DNA from: Thalassovita sp.
GTDB taxonomy: Bacteria; Bacteroidota; Bacteroidia; Cytophagales; Flammeovirgaceae
Reading direction: 5' to 3'
Length of the DNA: 35,561 bases
Assembly (NCBI GenBank): GCA_002729595.1
Contig: PBYL01000238.1
Span: forward strand, 1-35,561
Below the pieces are notes generated by a model that was given only the letters and a program-made list of their open reading frames with translations, made no database searches and was not told the DNA's origin. Position 1 is the first letter of the stretch. Each line of letters starts with the position of its first letter. Shown here piece after piece: positions 10,775-20,838 of this stretch. The position numbers and the translations under genes were made by a program.

Positions 10775-11152
10775 ATGAAGAACCTGTTATTGATTTTTAT
10801 TGGCGGTGGGCTAGGTAGTTGTTGTAGATATTTACTTTCACTTTGGCTTAATACACCAGCTAGCAACTTTCCATTAGGTACATTCGCAGCAAATGTTTTG
10901 AGCTGTATGGTTTTAGGATTTGCTTCTGTATTAGTGATAGAAAAACTAGAATTATCAACCCATATCCGATTCATAATTATGACGGGTTTCTGTGGTGGGT
11001 TTAGTACATTCTCTACATTCGACAGTGAGATTTTCGCGATAATAGAAAGAGAAAACTATCTTTCAAGTTTAATCTACGCTGTAATTAGTATAATTGCAGG
11101 CCTTGGGGCTTTGTTTGTAGGTATGACACTAGGAAACAAGGTTATCTCTTAA
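10775..11152 (+). CDS. crcB: Fluoride ion channel CrcB/FluC
   Basis: 125 residues with four hydrophobic segments. The family motifs are in order: GGGLGSCCRY near the N-terminus, FPLGTFAANVLSC in helix 2 (the Asn of the pore) and TGFCGGFSTFSTF in helix 3, which carries the central Na+ site and the phenylalanine box. FluC forms an antiparallel dimer that exports fluoride passively. No CrcB-type fluoride riboswitch was recognised in the 149 bases upstream. The next gene converges on it with a 4-base gap. Confidence 0.95.
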   Translation: MKNLLLIFIGGGLGSCCRYLLSLWLNTPASNFPLGTFAANVLSCMVLGFASVLVIEKLELSTHIRFIIMTGFCGGFSTFSTFDSEIFAIIERENYLSSLIYAVISIIAGLGALFVGMTLGNKVIS

Positions 11153-14440: not shown

Positions 14441-14620
14441 TTACTCAGCTGTATTTTTCTTTTTCATCAGAAAAGGTGCGCTGATGAACCAAAATACCAT
14501 TCCTGCAATCATTAAATTCTTTTGAATGTCTGCTGTAATTGTTCCATTAAAAAGTAAAATGGACGGCAGAATCGTAAGTATTAAGCCAATAATACTTGAG
14601 ATGATGATTAGTATTTTCAT
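14441..14620 (-). CDS. Small two-helix membrane protein, 59 residues
   Basis: A short frame from ATG at 14620 to TAA at 14441. It begins MKILIIISSIIGLILTILPS and ends APFLMKKKNTAE. Two hydrophobic segments (about residues 2-25 and 36-52) are separated by a polar loop (NGTITADIQKN), and the lysine-rich tail should be cytoplasmic. The start lies only eight bases after the stop of the NCS1-type permease gene on the same strand, so the two are almost certainly co-transcribed and possibly translationally coupled. Small membrane proteins beside a transporter gene can be accessory subunits, as known for some sodium:solute symporters; for NCS1 permeases this is inference. No family was recognised. 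Confidence 0.7.
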   Translation of the reverse strand: MKILIIISSIIGLILTILPSILLFNGTITADIQKNLMIAGMVFWFISAPFLMKKKNTAE

Positions 14621-14628
14621 ATTTATAT

Positions 14629-16089
14629 TTAGTTTATAACAAGCTGTTTTTTCTGTGCGATTTTGCTGCTAACTATGTAAAGAATGGCAGCTATGAACCA
14701 ACCAGGTAAGCCTAAGAAGAATATTTCAACTCCACCGAAAACATTTAATCCTACGCAGATGCATAGTGTAACAATCCAAGCAATTCCTGCCGGTGCATTA
14801 AATTTAATTCCGGCTAATTCTGCGTAGTTAGATTGCAAGTTGAATTTCTTCATAAAGTAATGATCGATAAAGATCACCGCACCCATTGGCATCAATACTA
14901 AACCGTAAAGAGCTACAAAATCTAACAGTTTCATTACAAGTGCAGGGAAGATCGCTCCAATAGTTGCCACTGCTCCGGCAATCATGGTAACCTGCATTCT
15001 ATTTTGTTTCGGGAAGATTGACTGAAAGGCGAGGCCGGCTCTGTAAATAGTAGGGTTGGCTGTTGTCCATCCTGCAATTACCACACAAATTGCACCTGCT
15101 AAACCTGCTGCATTAAATGCCAATGGTCCTGGAGCTACAGGTGGTAAATCTCCCGATGTTACTTGTGGTAGATATTCTGCCAATGTATAACCCTCTGGCA
15201 CTATTTGAATCAATACAACTGAATAAAGAATCCCTGCTGCGATCCAAGCCATGTAATGCCCGATATAAACACCAGTTGCAGATGAAAAGCCATATTGCCA
15301 TTTTTTTGCATATCTCAATACAGACATATCTGCCATACCGATGTGCATTGCCATATTAGCAAACCATGCAAAGAATGTAACATGCCAAAAATTAAACTTG
15401 CTTACATCACTAGCTGTAGCACCAACCCAAATTTTTTCTTTTGCAACTGTCCAAAAATCTCCAATACTAGAAACACCTAAATCTGGCAACACAGCAATTC
15501 CTGCAGATAAGAATACGAGAATCATCCAAGGAGCAGCGATATTGGCAACTTTAGCTACCATTTCATATCCTCTCATGGCTACCACTGTGATAATGGCACC
15601 AACAAAGAAGACTGCTAAAATCCATGAAATACTATTCGGATAAAAATCATTTAACCCGGGCATTTTCATGTTAAATGGAATACCAATGGCAGTTGCAGAA
15701 ACGGCTATCATGGAGCCTGCTAAAAAGCAGAACATTAGGCCATTTGCGATGTTGTAGAAGTTAACTAATCTACTACCACAAATTTTCTCTAGTTGATAAT
15801 AGAGTGTAATTCTATTTTTAACTGCTATGGGAGCACAGATTAATGCCCAACTTAGTACAGCCAGAAAATTACCGATAAGCAGACCTAAAATGAGTTCTAC
15901 TGCATTAACTCCGTGTGCAACGAACAATGGACCGATTACAAACTCAGTACCTGCGGCATGTTCGCCAGCATACATTCCAACAAAACTCCCAATTCCTTTT
16001 AATTTGCTATCTGGAACTCTTTCTCTTTCGTACTCATTTACACCCTGCGTTTTGTTAGCTGGTTTAGTTTTAGATGTTTCAATATTCAT
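14629..16089 (-). CDS. NCS1-type (purine-cytosine permease family) transporter
   Basis: 486 residues with about twelve hydrophobic segments. The N-terminal ERVPDSKLKGIGSFVGMYAGEHAAGTEF region and the later GWTTANPTIYRAGLAFQSI segment are typical of NCS1/cytosine-permease-like symporters, which take up nucleobases, hydantoins or vitamins with H+ or Na+. The helix 1 region is rich in small residues as in this fold. The gene sits 35 bases after a rhamnose-isomerase-like gene and eight bases before a mini membrane protein, which suggests the cargo is the isomerase substrate or a related polyhydroxy compound rather than a nucleobase. That substrate change is inference from context. No nucleobase-metabolism gene is nearby. 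Confidence 0.82.
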   Translation of the reverse strand: MNIETSKTKPANKTQGVNEYERERVPDSKLKGIGSFVGMYAGEHAAGTEFVIGPLFVAHGVNAVELILGLLIGNFLAVLSWALICAPIAVKNRITLYYQLEKICGSRLVNFYNIANGLMFCFLAGSMIAVSATAIGIPFNMKMPGLNDFYPNSISWILAVFFVGAIITVVAMRGYEMVAKVANIAAPWMILVFLSAGIAVLPDLGVSSIGDFWTVAKEKIWVGATASDVSKFNFWHVTFFAWFANMAMHIGMADMSVLRYAKKWQYGFSSATGVYIGHYMAWIAAGILYSVVLIQIVPEGYTLAEYLPQVTSGDLPPVAPGPLAFNAAGLAGAICVVIAGWTTANPTIYRAGLAFQSIFPKQNRMQVTMIAGAVATIGAIFPALVMKLLDFVALYGLVLMPMGAVIFIDHYFMKKFNLQSNYAELAGIKFNAPAGIAWIVTLCICVGLNVFGGVEIFFLGLPGWFIAAILYIVSSKIAQKKQLVIN

Positions 16090-16124
16090 ATTTACAGTTT
16101 ATGTTTTTAGGTAAAAGCGGAGAA

Positions 16125-17414
16125 TCAAAGACCAGTTGCGATGGTTTTTGAGCCTCTGGTCTGAATTAATTGCTCTCTTATTTGCAGTTTTCTGTAAGTA
16201 TCGAGCGGATTAATTGCAGCATTTGATCTTCTTCTAGCTTCGGCAAGTAAAGGTCTTACATCAGTTCTGTAAGCATTCTGTAAAACTTCTTGTGCCATAG
16301 ATACATCGTTAGATTCACGATATTTTTCTAAACTATCTCTATCGATAATGAGTGCCTGAGCATAGGCAAGCTTCATAGCTTCTACAGATTGTAGTAAGTC
16401 TTCGAGAGGGTCTTTTAGGTTATGGCTCGCATCAATCATCCAAGCAGGTACTGGATTTGCCGATTTTTCATCTTCCATACCTTCTACCAATTCATTAAAT
16501 ATTAAGAATAATTGGTAAGGCTTCATTGAGCCAACAGTAAGGTCATCATCAGCAAACTTAGAATCATTAAAATGGAAACCACCAAGTTTTGCCTCCATCA
16601 TTAATGTAGCTACAATTTGCTCGATATTGGTATTTGGCAAGTGGTGACCTAAATCGACAAGACAAAAAGCCTTTTCGCCAAGTTTATTGGCAAGTAGGTG
16701 AGAAGTTCCCCAGTCTGGAATTACCATAGAGTAGAAGTAAGGCTCAAATGGTTTGTACTCAACTAACACTTTCCAATCTTCTGGGAGTGTTTCATAAATT
16801 CTTTCTAAAGAATCTAAAGTATTGCCAAATGCTTTTCTAAAATTCATTTGACCCGGAAAACTAGAGCCATCTGCTAACCATACTGTTAAAGCTTTTGAGC
16901 CAAGTTCTTTTCCGTATTTAATTACTTCTATATTGTGTTCAACTGCTTTCATTCTTACCGCAGGATCGGAGTGGCAAAGAGAACCAAACTTGTAAGAATG
17001 ATCTTGACCGGGTTGATCTTGAAAAGTGTTTGAGTTAACTGCATCAAATTTAAGGTTGTAAGATGCGGCTAATTCTTTAATGGCATTTGTATCTTTTGGG
17101 ATGTCCCACGGAATGTGTAAAGAGATCGCATCGCTTGATGCATTTAATGCGTGTAGTGTTCCTACATCTTGTATTTTTTCTTCGAGGCTGCCAGGTTCAC
17201 CACCACCGGGAAATCTGCCAAATCTTGTTCCACCTGTGCCTAATGCCCAGCTTGGTATTGCTACCTGAAATGATGAAATTTTATCTAAAAGCTGCTCGAT
17301 GTTATGGCCATCTTTTTCTAGTGTTTCTGCTAGAATTTCAAACTGTCTTGTATGAGTTTGTGCTGCACTATTGTTTATTTCTGCTATTCTCGAACTTAAT
17401 CCTTCCATTTCCAA
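16125..17414 (-). CDS. rhaI: L-rhamnose isomerase-like sugar isomerase (TIM barrel)
   Basis: 429 residues, the length of the Pseudomonas stutzeri-type L-rhamnose isomerase. Metal and catalytic residues fall where expected for that enzyme: Glu219 in LVEYKPFEP, Asp254 and His257 in CLVDLGHHLP, His281 and Asp289-291 in GGFHFNDSKFADDD, and Asp328 in AWMIDASHN. The N-terminal lid region has WALGTGGTRFGRFPGGGEPG. The enzyme should interconvert an aldose and a ketose (L-rhamnose/L-rhamnulose, with broad specificity in this family). It heads an operon with the permease and the 59-residue protein. No rhamnulokinase, aldolase or lactaldehyde dehydrogenase is nearby, so the pathway is incomplete here and the sugar could differ. 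Confidence 0.88.
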   Translation of the reverse strand: MEMEGLSSRIAEINNSAAQTHTRQFEILAETLEKDGHNIEQLLDKISSFQVAIPSWALGTGGTRFGRFPGGGEPGSLEEKIQDVGTLHALNASSDAISLHIPWDIPKDTNAIKELAASYNLKFDAVNSNTFQDQPGQDHSYKFGSLCHSDPAVRMKAVEHNIEVIKYGKELGSKALTVWLADGSSFPGQMNFRKAFGNTLDSLERIYETLPEDWKVLVEYKPFEPYFYSMVIPDWGTSHLLANKLGEKAFCLVDLGHHLPNTNIEQIVATLMMEAKLGGFHFNDSKFADDDLTVGSMKPYQLFLIFNELVEGMEDEKSANPVPAWMIDASHNLKDPLEDLLQSVEAMKLAYAQALIIDRDSLEKYRESNDVSMAQEVLQNAYRTDVRPLLAEARRRSNAAINPLDTYRKLQIREQLIQTRGSKTIATGL

Positions 17415-17427
17415 TTTTTTTTAAAAC

Positions 17428-17435
17428 CAAATCTA
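17428..17435 (-). promoter_or_regulatory. Candidate -7 box for the rhaI operon
   Basis: On the minus strand it reads TAGATTTG, an exact TAnnTTTG match 13 bases before the rhaI ATG, implying a very short leader. No matching -33 box is clear at the usual distance. Confidence 0.35.
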
Positions 17436-17452
17436 TATTTTACCAAGAACAT

Positions 17453-17486
17453 AACTATGATGTACTGTACTGACAATTAACTATGA
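17453..17486. repeat. 8-bp direct repeat pair upstream of the rhaI operon
   Basis: AACTATGA occurs at 17453-17460 and 17479-17486. TGTACTGTACTGACA lies between them and has TGT/ACA ends. The pair sits just upstream of the candidate -7 box and could be an operator for a sugar-responsive regulator, but no regulator gene is adjacent. Confidence 0.3.
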
Positions 17487-17519
17487 AAAAACTCATCCTT
17501 CGAGTTGAAAAATGAGTTG
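17485..17519 (-). terminator. Intrinsic terminator of the HhH coiled-coil gene
   Basis: On the minus strand AACTCAT pairs with ATGAGTT across a loop of about 15 bases, followed by a run of T. It lies about 40 bases after the stop of the gene at 17560-18279 and separates it from the rhaI operon. Confidence 0.6.
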
Positions 17520-17559
17520 AAAAAAAGCGGTAAATATTCTATTATTCAGATTAAATAAT

Positions 17560-18279
17560 TTATTGTTCGGGCGTCTTGATTTTGTCTTTATATAGCTTGT
17601 GAGCTTGGCCAACCCAGTTATCTCTCTGAATTCTCCCCGGGAAAAATTCTATGGCATCAGTCACTCTTTCTATTAAATGATCATCAAAACTGCTAATCTG
17701 TCTATAAGTGTAAATTCCAATATCGTTTAATTTCTTTTCTATAAATGGTCCAATACCTTGAATCACTTTTAGATCATCTTTCTCACTAATATCGGCATCG
17801 TTAAAAAGCTTTTTTTGATTGGCAGAATTCGCTCTACACTCATTCAGCTCATTTTGGAGTTCTTCCATTTTAAGCAGTACTTGCTTATTATTCGTGTAGA
17901 GAGTTTTGTTTTCGTTTTTAAGCAGTATGTATTCGTCTTCTTGAGGCCTTATTTCTAGTTGAGTTTTAAGTTTGGCAACTTCTTCCATTAAAGCAGACTT
18001 CTCCATTTCAGATTTTGTACTCACAGAGCCTACTTCCACAGATTCTGCTTCGTTTTGGAATTGTAGCGTTTTTGCCTTTTTAAGTGAATTGATCTCTTTT
18101 TTCAACTGCTCATTCTCATTTTCGAGCTTAGTAATCTGAATTTTTTGCTGAAGCATTTCACCTTGTAATTCTTCTAATGGAAATTTCCATCTTCTACGAT
18201 AATATAGCCAGGCAGTAATGTAACCTATCGCAGCAGCCACAGAAAGGGCTATTATAAAAAAAATGGCTTTTTCAGTCAT
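17560..18279 (-). CDS. Membrane-anchored coiled-coil protein with C-terminal helix-hairpin-helix domain
   Basis: 239 residues in three parts. A single N-terminal membrane helix (about residues 5-26) is followed at once by YYRRRWK, so by the positive-inside rule the rest is cytoplasmic. A long heptad-rich region (about 33-150) is a probable coiled coil. The C-terminal domain (about 165-235) has DLKVIQGIGPFIEKKLNDIGI, a helix-hairpin-helix of the kind often annotated as flap-endonuclease-like, ending in FFPGRIQRDNWVGQAHKL. HhH domains usually bind DNA without sequence specificity; no nuclease active site is evident. It follows an OmpA-domain gene by 67 bases on the same strand and has its own terminator. 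A link between membrane and nucleoid is a speculation from the architecture. Confidence 0.75.
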   Translation of the reverse strand: MTEKAIFFIIALSVAAAIGYITAWLYYRRRWKFPLEELQGEMLQQKIQITKLENENEQLKKEINSLKKAKTLQFQNEAESVEVGSVSTKSEMEKSALMEEVAKLKTQLEIRPQEDEYILLKNENKTLYTNNKQVLLKMEELQNELNECRANSANQKKLFNDADISEKDDLKVIQGIGPFIEKKLNDIGIYTYRQISSFDDHLIERVTDAIEFFPGRIQRDNWVGQAHKLYKDKIKTPEQ

Positions 18280-18346
18280 GGTGATTTAGATTATCAGAAG
18301 TTTACTTAATTATATCATTGTAGATTTAATGTATTACAGAGTTGTA

Positions 18347-18961
18347 TTAATTCTTAATTAGTATTTCTACTCGCCTGTTGTTTTGCCTGCCCTCGTTGGT
18401 TTTATTGCTGCTTAGAGGCTCGTATTCCCCCATGCTTTTAGCATCTATTCGATTAGCATCTATCTCATATTTACTCAAAACAGCTTTTACTTTTTCGGCT
18501 CTTTCTTGGCCTAATTGTAGATTTTTAGCTTCGTCTCCAACATCGTCGGTGTGCCCGGTAATGGTAATTCTTTTACCAGAGTTATCTTTAAGGTATGAGA
18601 TCAAATTCAAAAAGGATTCATTTTTAGTTAAGTCCTCTTGAATATCAATAGTAGCAAAGTCAAAATGAAAGGTCATTTGTTGCGTAATGTCTTTTGCTTC
18701 ATCTAAAACTTTGGTTTTTGGATCTACCGAAATGCTGTCAATTATTATATCTGAGGTGTCATTACTATGTAAAATATCTAGTTCGGTACTATCTACCTCT
18801 TTTTCTACTGTACTATCTTCTGAATAAACCTTTAAATTTTCTGCAGTAACATTATTGCTGGTTTCGCCCAGACATAAATATTCAATCTTGCATAAATACC
18901 AATAAGTTGTTCCCGCAGCCCACAATCCGAAACACAACAGTCCAGTGAGTAAAATTTTCAT
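18347..18961 (-). CDS. OmpA-family peptidoglycan-binding protein
   Basis: 204 residues from the ATG at 18961; an in-frame TTG at 18967 would add two. A hydrophobic N-terminal segment (about residues 2-22) is an uncleaved anchor or a signal peptide; it continues into YLCKIEYLC, with two cysteines that could form a disulfide. A low-complexity acidic/serine stretch precedes the OmpA domain (about 95-204): FHFDFATIDI, then ITITGHTDDVGDEAKN, QLGQERAEKV and GRQNNRRVEILI, which hold the Asp and Arg used to bind meso-diaminopimelate in peptidoglycan. It should sit in the periplasm and grip the cell wall. It precedes the HhH coiled-coil gene and may form a unit with it. Confidence 0.85.
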   Translation of the reverse strand: MKILLTGLLCFGLWAAGTTYWYLCKIEYLCLGETSNNVTAENLKVYSEDSTVEKEVDSTELDILHSNDTSDIIIDSISVDPKTKVLDEAKDITQQMTFHFDFATIDIQEDLTKNESFLNLISYLKDNSGKRITITGHTDDVGDEAKNLQLGQERAEKVKAVLSKYEIDANRIDAKSMGEYEPLSSNKTNEGRQNNRRVEILIKN

Positions 18962-19096
18962 AAACAAGTATGGAATATTAGCCTAGAAAAAAATCAGATA
19001 GTAAGACACAAAAAGTTTGAGGACACCCGGTTGAAAGTGCTACTACAATTTAGTTTATTTTAATTAAGCTAACAATAATTAAGGGCTAAAAAAATG

Positions 19097-19837
19097 CTAA
19101 AATACTATGTAATAATCTTTCAGTAGAGAACTGTATTCTTTTGAGTAGGAGGTATCTTCGTTTCTTATACTAAACTCTTCTTCTTTTATCTTTTGGTTAA
19201 TAGGGGAGATCATCAAAATAATTCTGTGTACCTTCTTATAGGTAATCGGTTTGATGTTTAATTGATAGTTTACAAAGAGAGCGTATTTTGGGAGATGTTG
19301 TAAAAATCTATTTCCTTCGTCAACAGGCAAAATAATATAGAATTTACCATCTGAAGCCAGTAATTGTTTTACTGCTTTAATTAAAGCTTCGAAAGGGAGA
19401 GAGTCATTGTGTTTAGATAAGTTTTTGTGCGCATATGGAGACTTTGTTGCATTCTCAAAGAAAGGTGGGTTACACACAATTACATCGTATAGTTTTGAGC
19501 TATTATCAGCATAATCTATAATGCTGTTATGAAAGCAGCTAAGCCTTTCAGTCCATTTACTTTGTTCGAAGTTATAAATTGCTTGTTGCGCAGAATCAGC
19601 GTCAATTTCCACTGCATCAAAATTAGCCTCAAACTTTTGCGCAAGCATTAATGCAATTACACCAGTTCCAGTTCCAATGTCTAAAAATTGAGAATTAGAA
19701 TTGACCTTATCTTTTTGCAATTCTTTTACAGCGACTGCTCCTAGCAAACATCCATCTGTATTTACCTTAAGACTGCAATTTTCTTGATGAACAACAAACT
19801 CTTTAAATATAAAAGGCTTAGCTGGTTTTTTAGGCAT
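19097..19837 (-). CDS. trmN6: TrmN6-like tRNA1(Val) (adenine37-N6)-methyltransferase
   Basis: 246 residues. The SAM-binding motif FLDIGTGTGVIALML starts at residue 51. The N6-adenine catalytic motif NPPF is at 123-126, followed by the family-typical Phe and an ARK-like run (here PYAHKNLSKHND). The N-terminus KPFIFKEFVVHQENCSLKVNTDGCLLGA is the conserved opening of YfiC/TrmN6 proteins. The expected reaction is m6A formation at position 37 of tRNA1(Val). It begins five bases after the Gfo/Idh/MocA gene, so it is the last gene of that operon although the functions look unrelated. Confidence 0.9.
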   Translation of the reverse strand: MPKKPAKPFIFKEFVVHQENCSLKVNTDGCLLGAVAVKELQKDKVNSNSQFLDIGTGTGVIALMLAQKFEANFDAVEIDADSAQQAIYNFEQSKWTERLSCFHNSIIDYADNSSKLYDVIVCNPPFFENATKSPYAHKNLSKHNDSLPFEALIKAVKQLLASDGKFYIILPVDEGNRFLQHLPKYALFVNYQLNIKPITYKKVHRIILMISPINQKIKEEEFSIRNEDTSYSKEYSSLLKDYYIVF

Positions 19838-19842
19838 ACAAA

Positions 19843-20838
19843 TTAATCGTCGTGACCAGGATATTTTAAACCGATTTGCTTTCTAATGGTATCCATGCAC
19901 TCCATTAGTGTAAGGCTATCTTGATGACTCATTAACTCATTTTCGGTTTTTCCATTTAAAATATCTGTAGAGGCTGCTTCAATTTCATATTCGTAACCAT
20001 TCTGACCACTCACTTTATAATCTTCATATTGATAATTAAAGCGGTCTGAATAAATTTTAATCGCACTTGGTTGGTACCAAGGTCTGCAAATTTCAATTCT
20101 TGCCTTTTCTAAATTGATTTGAGTGATGATGGATGAATCTGAAATAATAGAAGTGGTAATAGCAGCTTGAACACCTTTATCATATTCAAAAATGAAAGTG
20201 CCTTGTGTATCTGCACCTGTTTCTGCAAAACTAGCAGAGGTTAGTATATTTACTGGTTTGCCGAGTAAGTAAGAAACCAAGAATACTGGATAAACACCAA
20301 CGTCTAGCAGTGCACCACCACCAAGCTCTATATTATAAAGTCTGTTATTTAAATCAACCGGAGCTTTAAAGCCAAAGTCTGACTGTATGCTTACAATTTT
20401 GCCGTACTCACCAGAATTTACAAGCTCTACTACTCTTTTAATAGAAGGTAAAAATCTAGACCACATGGCTTCCATTAAAAATACTTTTTCGGCCTTAGCA
20501 GTTTCAATCATTTCTTTTACCTCTTTGAGGTTTATGGCTAGCGCCTTTTCGCAAAGAACTGCTTTTTTGTGCTTTAAGCAGGCAATTGCATATTTATAGT
20601 GGTAACTGTGCGGAGTAGCAATGTAAATTGCATCTACTTCGCTACTTTCCATCAGTTCCTCATAAGAACCGTAGGCTATTGGAATACTATATTTATCTGC
20701 AAATTCTTGAGCTCTCTCTTTATTTCTTGATGCTGCAGCAACAACTTTTGCATTGTTAACTCTAGATGCTGCTTCAGTAAATTTTCTTGCTATTTTTCCG
20801 GGGCCTAAAACTCCCCATCTTACTTGTTTATCAGTCAT
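19843..20838 (-). CDS. Gfo/Idh/MocA-family NAD(P)-dependent oxidoreductase
   Basis: 331 residues. The N-terminal Rossmann domain starts VRWGVLGPGKIARKF and continues with VAAASRNKERAQEFA, YIATPHSYHYKYAI and the family's EKP-like site, here CEKALAIN. The C-terminal domain has GGGALLDVGVYPVFLVSYLLG, with the Asp and Tyr expected around the active site of the dihydrodiol-dehydrogenase-like branch. Members oxidise or reduce sugars, inositols or diols; the substrate is not predictable. The catalytic lysine is retained although the usual proline after it is Ala, as in several relatives. It lies 16 bases after the TPR lipoprotein gene and five bases before trmN6. Confidence 0.88.
   Translation of the reverse strand: MTDKQVRWGVLGPGKIARKFTEAASRVNNAKVVAAASRNKERAQEFADKYSIPIAYGSYEELMESSEVDAIYIATPHSYHYKYAIACLKHKKAVLCEKALAINLKEVKEMIETAKAEKVFLMEAMWSRFLPSIKRVVELVNSGEYGKIVSIQSDFGFKAPVDLNNRLYNIELGGGALLDVGVYPVFLVSYLLGKPVNILTSASFAETGADTQGTFIFEYDKGVQAAITTSIISDSSIITQINLEKARIEICRPWYQPSAIKIYSDRFNYQYEDYKVSGQNGYEYEIEAASTDILNGKTENELMSHQDSLTLMECMDTIRKQIGLKYPGHDD

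Follow-up and report, generated by a model that had tools for sequence, protein, structure and literature searches.

A predicted NCS1-fold L-rhamnose symporter encoded together with an isomerase and a two-helix membrane protein in a member of the Flammeovirgaceae

The 35,561-nucleotide contig PBYL01000238.1 (assembly GCA_002729595.1, deposited as Thalassovita sp. and placed by GTDB in the Flammeovirgaceae), hereafter the window, carries on its minus strand a head-to-tail trio of genes for an isomerase (17414-16125), a permease (16089-14629) and a very small membrane protein (14620-14441). We consider it probable that this operon encodes a Na+-coupled L-rhamnose symporter of the NCS1 fold, the isomerase acting on the imported sugar, and a dedicated two-helix partner of the symporter. 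The gene order, linkage, co-occurrence, fold and pathway context described below were computed directly. All three open reading frames (ORFs) lie where the original prediction had put them; the gap between isomerase and permease is 35 nt, and the small ORF starts exactly 8 nt past the permease stop, as had been claimed. The features, with the evidence used to name them, are as follows (TM, transmembrane).

16125..17414, minus strand: RhaI-type L-rhamnose isomerase-like TIM-barrel enzyme (TIGR02629, TIGR02635, phmmer to 2hcv)
14629..16089, minus strand: 12-TM NCS1-fold symporter of 486 aa, predicted Na+-coupled L-rhamnose permease (fold, HH, gene context)
14441..14620, minus strand: two-helix membrane protein of 59 residues, predicted permease partner (homologue family, position, co-occurrence)

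In the proposed scheme the permease, a secondary carrier of the LeuT superfamily, would import L-rhamnose, with a Na+ ion most likely occupying a conserved Na2 site, and the isomerase would convert it to L-rhamnulose; a kinase and the bifunctional aldolase/dehydrogenase RhaEW, encoded on other contigs, would complete the pathway. The 59-residue hairpin would be a stoichiometric partner of the permease, stabilising, gating or tuning it. In sister lineages a similar hairpin would be built into the carrier polypeptide, and one clade of permeases would no longer need it. Rhamnose transport, Na+ coupling, contact between permease and small protein, and the effect of the latter are the parts of this scheme that we infer.

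Since direct sequence searches were empty, the permease family was placed with the help of a linking NCS1 protein and of structure predictions. The permease, searched singly and as a profile against Pfam, NCBIfam and PDB, gave zero matches, and none of 32 family members (the window protein and 31 relatives) matched PF02133 even at E≤1, or PF00474, the sodium:solute symporter (SSS) family. The hidden Markov model (HMM) of the family reached L011 at E 7e-12, and L011 together with L013, both from genomes of the same taxonomic family, at about 1e-11; L011 is a PF02133 protein (71 bits) with a phmmer E of 5.5e-27 to the cytosine carrier CodB, and hhalign pairs it with the permease family at 96.4% and E 1.4e-9. 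The AlphaFold model of the window permease (pLDDT 86.6, pTM 0.85) has CodB as its closest solved fold (Z 36.4, root-mean-square deviation 2.8 Å, 394 residues), followed by the hydantoin carrier Mhp1 at Z 30.3 and, as the next family, SSS at Z 25.4. For the permease models as a set the corresponding values are Z 36-40, 30-32 and about 25, and structures of SGLT with MAP17 are among the matches. The modelled fold is thus that of NCS1, and the original description of the protein as an NCS1-type permease holds for the fold but not for Pfam membership.

Aligned transitively through L011, residues W341-T342-T343 in TM8 of the permease, which are invariant in its family, correspond to W277-T278-T279 of CodB, where T278 and T279 on TM8 are sodium (Na2) ligands (PMC9379551). 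By the same alignment the cytosine-pocket residues Q105 and W108 (TM3) and N280 of CodB are replaced by F122, G125 and A344, the first two of these being invariant in the permease family. This is a strong hint, although not proof, that the permease is a Na+ symporter that has lost the ring-stacking nucleobase pocket. CodB and Mhp1 share with the window permease the 12-TM LeuT fold and the threonine pair of the Na2 site in TM8; the latter differs from them in belonging to a family without a PF02133 match, in the replaced tryptophan and glutamine of the pocket, in its sugar gene context and in having a separate two-helix partner.

The isomerase is, judged by its sequence, a relative of L-rhamnose isomerase of the RhaI type. 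It scores 413 bits against TIGR02635 and 525 bits against TIGR02629, the latter under the curated equivalog cut-off of 646.75, and matches the Pseudomonas stutzeri L-rhamnose isomerase 2hcv with a phmmer E=1e-142. Residues E219, D254, H257, H281, D289, D291 and D327, which we take to be the metal and catalytic residues of the P. stutzeri enzyme, are identical in this alignment. The RhaI of Pontibacter harenae, which lies inside a complete rhamnose cluster, likewise remains under the cut-off (507 bits against TIGR02629); for this lineage the threshold is set too high, and the low score of the window enzyme is therefore no argument against rhamnose. The original prediction had found no kinase or aldolase, which is correct within the window but not for the genome. 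Contig C404 encodes RhaEW (984 bits, above the cut-off) adjacent to a GntR regulator, and C90 an FGGY kinase with 45% identity to that of a Pontibacter rhamnose cluster. With these two genes the L-rhamnose pathway is present in the source genome, the assembly of which is 78% complete, though scattered over contigs; in relatives a complete rhamnose pathway adjoins the permease.

Further indications of the substrate come from 80 homologous loci, fetched by similarity to the window permease. Within reach of the permease were RhaI (36 loci), FGGY kinase (38), RhaEW (31, a few of which are weak dehydrogenase matches), GntR regulator (28), LutA (24), LutB (24), RhaM mutarotase (24) and GH106 rhamnosidase (22). 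In Omnitrophota, planctomycete and Calditrichota assemblies the permease and small gene adjoin other sets of rhamnose genes: the E. coli-type isomerase RhaA at L099 and L085 (688 and 709 bits, both exceeding the cut-off), kinases at L085 and L069 that resemble rhamnulokinase and narrowly miss the cut-off, and a GH78 rhamnosidase. Because the pair adjoins differing isomerase types as well as other rhamnose genes, what appears constant across these loci is the sugar, L-rhamnose, and not any single enzyme family. Judged by gene company, L-rhamnose is the most likely substrate. Of the sugar or polyol carrier suggested originally, the sugar is thus supported, whereas a polyol fits a sister clade only.

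The same gene company bears on two other substrates. That the permease transports nucleobases or nucleosides in the usual way and merely neighbors a sugar gene would agree with its NCS1 fold and with the annotation of plasmid homologues as "nucleoside transporter"; it is made very improbable by the recurrence of rhamnose clusters with several isomerase types, by the polyol clusters of the sister clade, and by the exchange of W108, Q105 and N280 of CodB for invariant G125, invariant F122 and A344. It is less far-fetched, but still unlikely, that the window carrier moves another sugar accepted by a broad RhaI-type isomerase, namely L-mannose, L-lyxose or D-allose. The P. stutzeri enzyme has broad specificity, the window isomerase is under the TIGR02629 cut-off, and kinase and aldolase are not adjacent to it. 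Against this stand RhaEW and the rhamnose-cluster-type kinase in the same genome, the rhamnosidases and RhaM at homologous loci, and a synteny block in the same genus in which RhaI is accompanied by a permease of the LPAW clade (see below), a clade known from rhamnose operons.

The small protein has about 100 homologues of 50-68 residues with 27-58% identity in several phyla. They share the motif L-K-[IL]-[IL]-S-x-x-G-L-x-L-T-[IV]-x-P-[SA] ... K-x-L-M-x-x-G-[TM]-x-x-W-F-x-[TS]-A-P-F-W-M, in which L13 and P19 are invariant and T16, M37, G40, W44 and F45 nearly so. Basic residues follow the second helix, for which reason both termini are probably cytoplasmic. A Pfam scan of 33 members assigned no family, the best match being DUF3917 at E 0.0011, and none of the 33 matched DUF485, DUF4212, DUF997 or DUF3311. 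That the 59-codon ORF is no functional gene has in its favor only its small size and the absence of a Pfam family, and is hardly credible given protein-level conservation across several phyla with position and start overlap kept. Two proteins of 133 residues (L219:740-1141 in G299 and L220:953-1354 in G394) have a C-terminal half that fits the two-helix model (E 5e-11 and 1e-10); neither adjoins a transporter, and no NCS1-like permease was found in the two genomes.

A 53-position HMM grown from the window protein showed that almost all close homologues of the permease are followed closely, on the same strand, by the small gene. Among 91 cases it overlaps or abuts the permease stop in 40, 36 of these by a 4-nt ATGA, lies within 40 nt in a further 36, and in 11, all of the Balneolota type, follows within the same cluster at a distance of about 2.3 kb. 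An apparent absence of the gene from Balneolota-type loci was rejected as an artefact of short flanks, as the gene is present in the genomes concerned, usually some 2.3 kb off. When 247 Bacteroidota genomes were drawn evenly, the small gene occurred in 18 and the permease in 25, and every one of the 18 was among the 25 (hypergeometric p = 5e-22). The original prediction had called for a search for the genes together in other Cytophagales; among 291 such genomes, 34 of which have the permease, it accompanies the small gene in 24 of 26 (p = 5e-25). The dedicated small subunit that had been proposed is thereby borne out as a dedicated partner, by co-occurrence and ATGA overlaps; that it is physically a subunit, we infer.

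The permeases that lack the small gene comprise one well-supported derived clade nested among the others, plus the polyol sister clade. The former, which we term LPAW, carries TLPAWL in place of LGLPGWF near the C-terminus of the permease and is found in complete operons of the order RhaEW-RhaI-kinase-FMN dehydrogenase-permease. Those sampled genomes whose sole permease type is LPAW yielded no small gene at any position. Since these rhamnose operons lack the small gene and RhaA-type clusters retain it, the small gene tracks the carrier and not the enzymes. In G001, a genome of the same genus as the source, locus L140 has an LPAW permease after RhaI in the same synteny block as window 16125-20838. 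Compared with the window, RhaI of L140 is 80% identical and the permease about 53% identical, that is, the carrier has been exchanged in place.

The main rival to a stoichiometric partner is that the permease imports L-rhamnose unaided, with the small protein in a regulatory role of its own, such as shielding the permease from a membrane protease or delivering it to one. Small membrane proteins which steer the turnover or activity of transporters include MgtU, MgtR, FeoC and AcrZ (review PMC10710835), and the occurrence of LPAW permeases in rhamnose operons without the small protein implies that it is no core part of the transport path. The near 1:1 coupling, the overlapping start codons and the counterpart fused to the C-terminal end of sister permeases favor the stoichiometric partner, and we regard the regulator as improbable, if less so than the alternatives concerning the substrate.

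The permease of the polyol sister clade adjoins mannitol dehydrogenase and a PfkB kinase and has a C-terminal extension with two hydrophobic segments. A similar extension is present on permeases of plasmid-borne rhamnose clusters in the alteromonads Alteromonas sp. 76-1, Catenovulum adriaticum and Pseudoalteromonas sp. KG3; the plasmid of the first is an ulvan plasmid (PMC6431674). HMMER with the small-protein model gave the fused extensions no significant score. In profile-profile comparison the small protein aligns end to end with the extensions (score 20-23, P 4e-4 to 2e-3), and decoy windows taken from the 12 helices of the carrier score about 15 at most, apart from those overlapping the extension. 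Homology of the small protein and the extensions is thus suggested by the sequences, although not proven. The paralogue pair L018 and L019, from two genomes of the same family, has neither small gene nor extension. A reading in which LeuT-fold symporters for sugars and polyols draw on the two-helix hairpin as an exchangeable accessory module, encoded separately beside NCS1-type rhamnose carriers, fused to the C-terminus in polyol and alteromonad rhamnose carriers, or at least once as the neighbor of an SSS gene, with one carrier clade independent of it, is put forward tentatively, as an idea that we hold to be somewhat less probable than its opposite.

Several further observations were made beside these. 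In public plasmid records (L249-L254) the homologues in rhamnose clusters are named "nucleoside transporter" and those in mannitol clusters "hypothetical protein," which is likely a mis-annotation. Nudix/NrtR-type proteins are encoded divergently beside polyol permease operons (L138:10470-11195, L135:5801-6538 and L225:6913-7638); the one at L138 has an NrtR_WHD match, and they are probably sugar-responsive regulators of these operons. The source genome itself encodes on contig C318 a permease paralogue of 573 aa with a C-terminal two-helix extension (L139:3427-5148), the neighbors of which are a SusD-like gene and molybdenum-hydroxylase-like genes, not sugar genes.

A number of points weigh against a rhamnose symporter with a dedicated partner. 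Some loci (e.g., L026, L029, L030, L032, L057 and L072) have no rhamnose gene nearby, for which reason the permease family may not be uniform and part of it may carry other substrates. Because the LPAW clade does without it, the small protein is dispensable for the permease fold. Alignment columns that distinguish permease clades having the small gene from those lacking it are not clustered more than expected by chance: the clade-differing residues at TM11-12 (LGLPGWF to TLPAWLL) form a cluster of five in eleven (p = 0.29). The HH probability of the small protein against the fused extensions is just 15-33%. When the permease and small protein of L023 were modeled as a single chain, with the stop read through, the pTM was 0.84; as this value is blind to whether the hairpin is docked, the model was not used as evidence of contact. 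In one genus the small gene is unlinked to the permease. In G308 a small-family member starts 13 nt after an SSS symporter (L222:9562-11122; PF00474, 154.6 bits), with an NCS1-like permease about 30 kb away on the same contig. This arrangement hints that a two-helix partner is shared by two LeuT-fold families.

The L-rhamnose carriers listed by Rodionova et al. (2013, PMC3870299) belong to three families, namely RhaT (DMT), RhaFGHJ and RhaSTPQ (ABC), and RhaY (MFS). The permease holds the same place in rha clusters, adjoining RhaI or RhaA, RhaB, RhaEW and RhaM, but would represent a fourth and unrelated carrier superfamily. A literature search for rhamnose carriers of the NCS1 type and for small subunits of NCS1 carriers found no description of either, in line with the original statement that no such subunit was known to its author. 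Echvi_1617 of Echinicola vietnamensis, to which L-rhamnose transport was assigned from fitness data, may be a member of the permease family. The closest functional parallel is that of SGLT1/2 and MAP17, in which, as proposed here, a LeuT-fold sugar symporter has a small membrane partner. By comparison SGLT is an animal member of the SSS family, and MAP17, a single-pass membrane protein, is unrelated to the window protein. Bacterial SSS symporters with small partners include ActP with DUF485/YjcH, those with DUF4212, and PanF with YhdT; here too a tiny protein is encoded beside a LeuT-fold symporter, as is the two-TM protein of the window, but the small family has no match to their Pfam families.

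If the proposed reading is correct, sugars and polyols would join the substrates of the NCS1 fold, which in the literature consulted are so far nucleobases and related rings, and the permease would be a candidate for the carrier that takes rhamnose across the inner membrane in many Bacteroidota and in alteromonads with plasmid-borne ulvan clusters. The pair would also be a bacterial counterpart to SGLT-MAP17. As nature offers it with the hairpin as its own gene, joined to the carrier or missing, it would lend itself readily to experiments on how so small a membrane protein serves a symporter. Should the hairpin be an accessory module, its role could be dissected by swapping the natural variants.

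With regard to transcription, the TTG at 17414 is listed as the isomerase start; an in-frame ATG two codons on, at 17408, is the likelier one. The region upstream of the isomerase is the following.

17448..17518, minus strand: gap between the trio and the upstream gene at 17560-18279 (consensus scan)

It contains a terminator-like hairpin (17518-17490) followed by a promoter-like site (17476-17448), although the count of promoter-like sites in this consensus scan was not above that in shuffled sequence. The window has no complete Bacteroidetes promoter motif (TTTG-N18-20-TAnnTTTG) and zero Rfam matches. At the other end a SpoU methylase gene is convergent with the small gene and ends 6 nt away. 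The convergent gene and the upstream hairpin make it probable that the three genes are transcribed as a unit of their own. A further small membrane protein, CrcB/Fluc-like by sequence, is encoded at 10775-11152 of the window.

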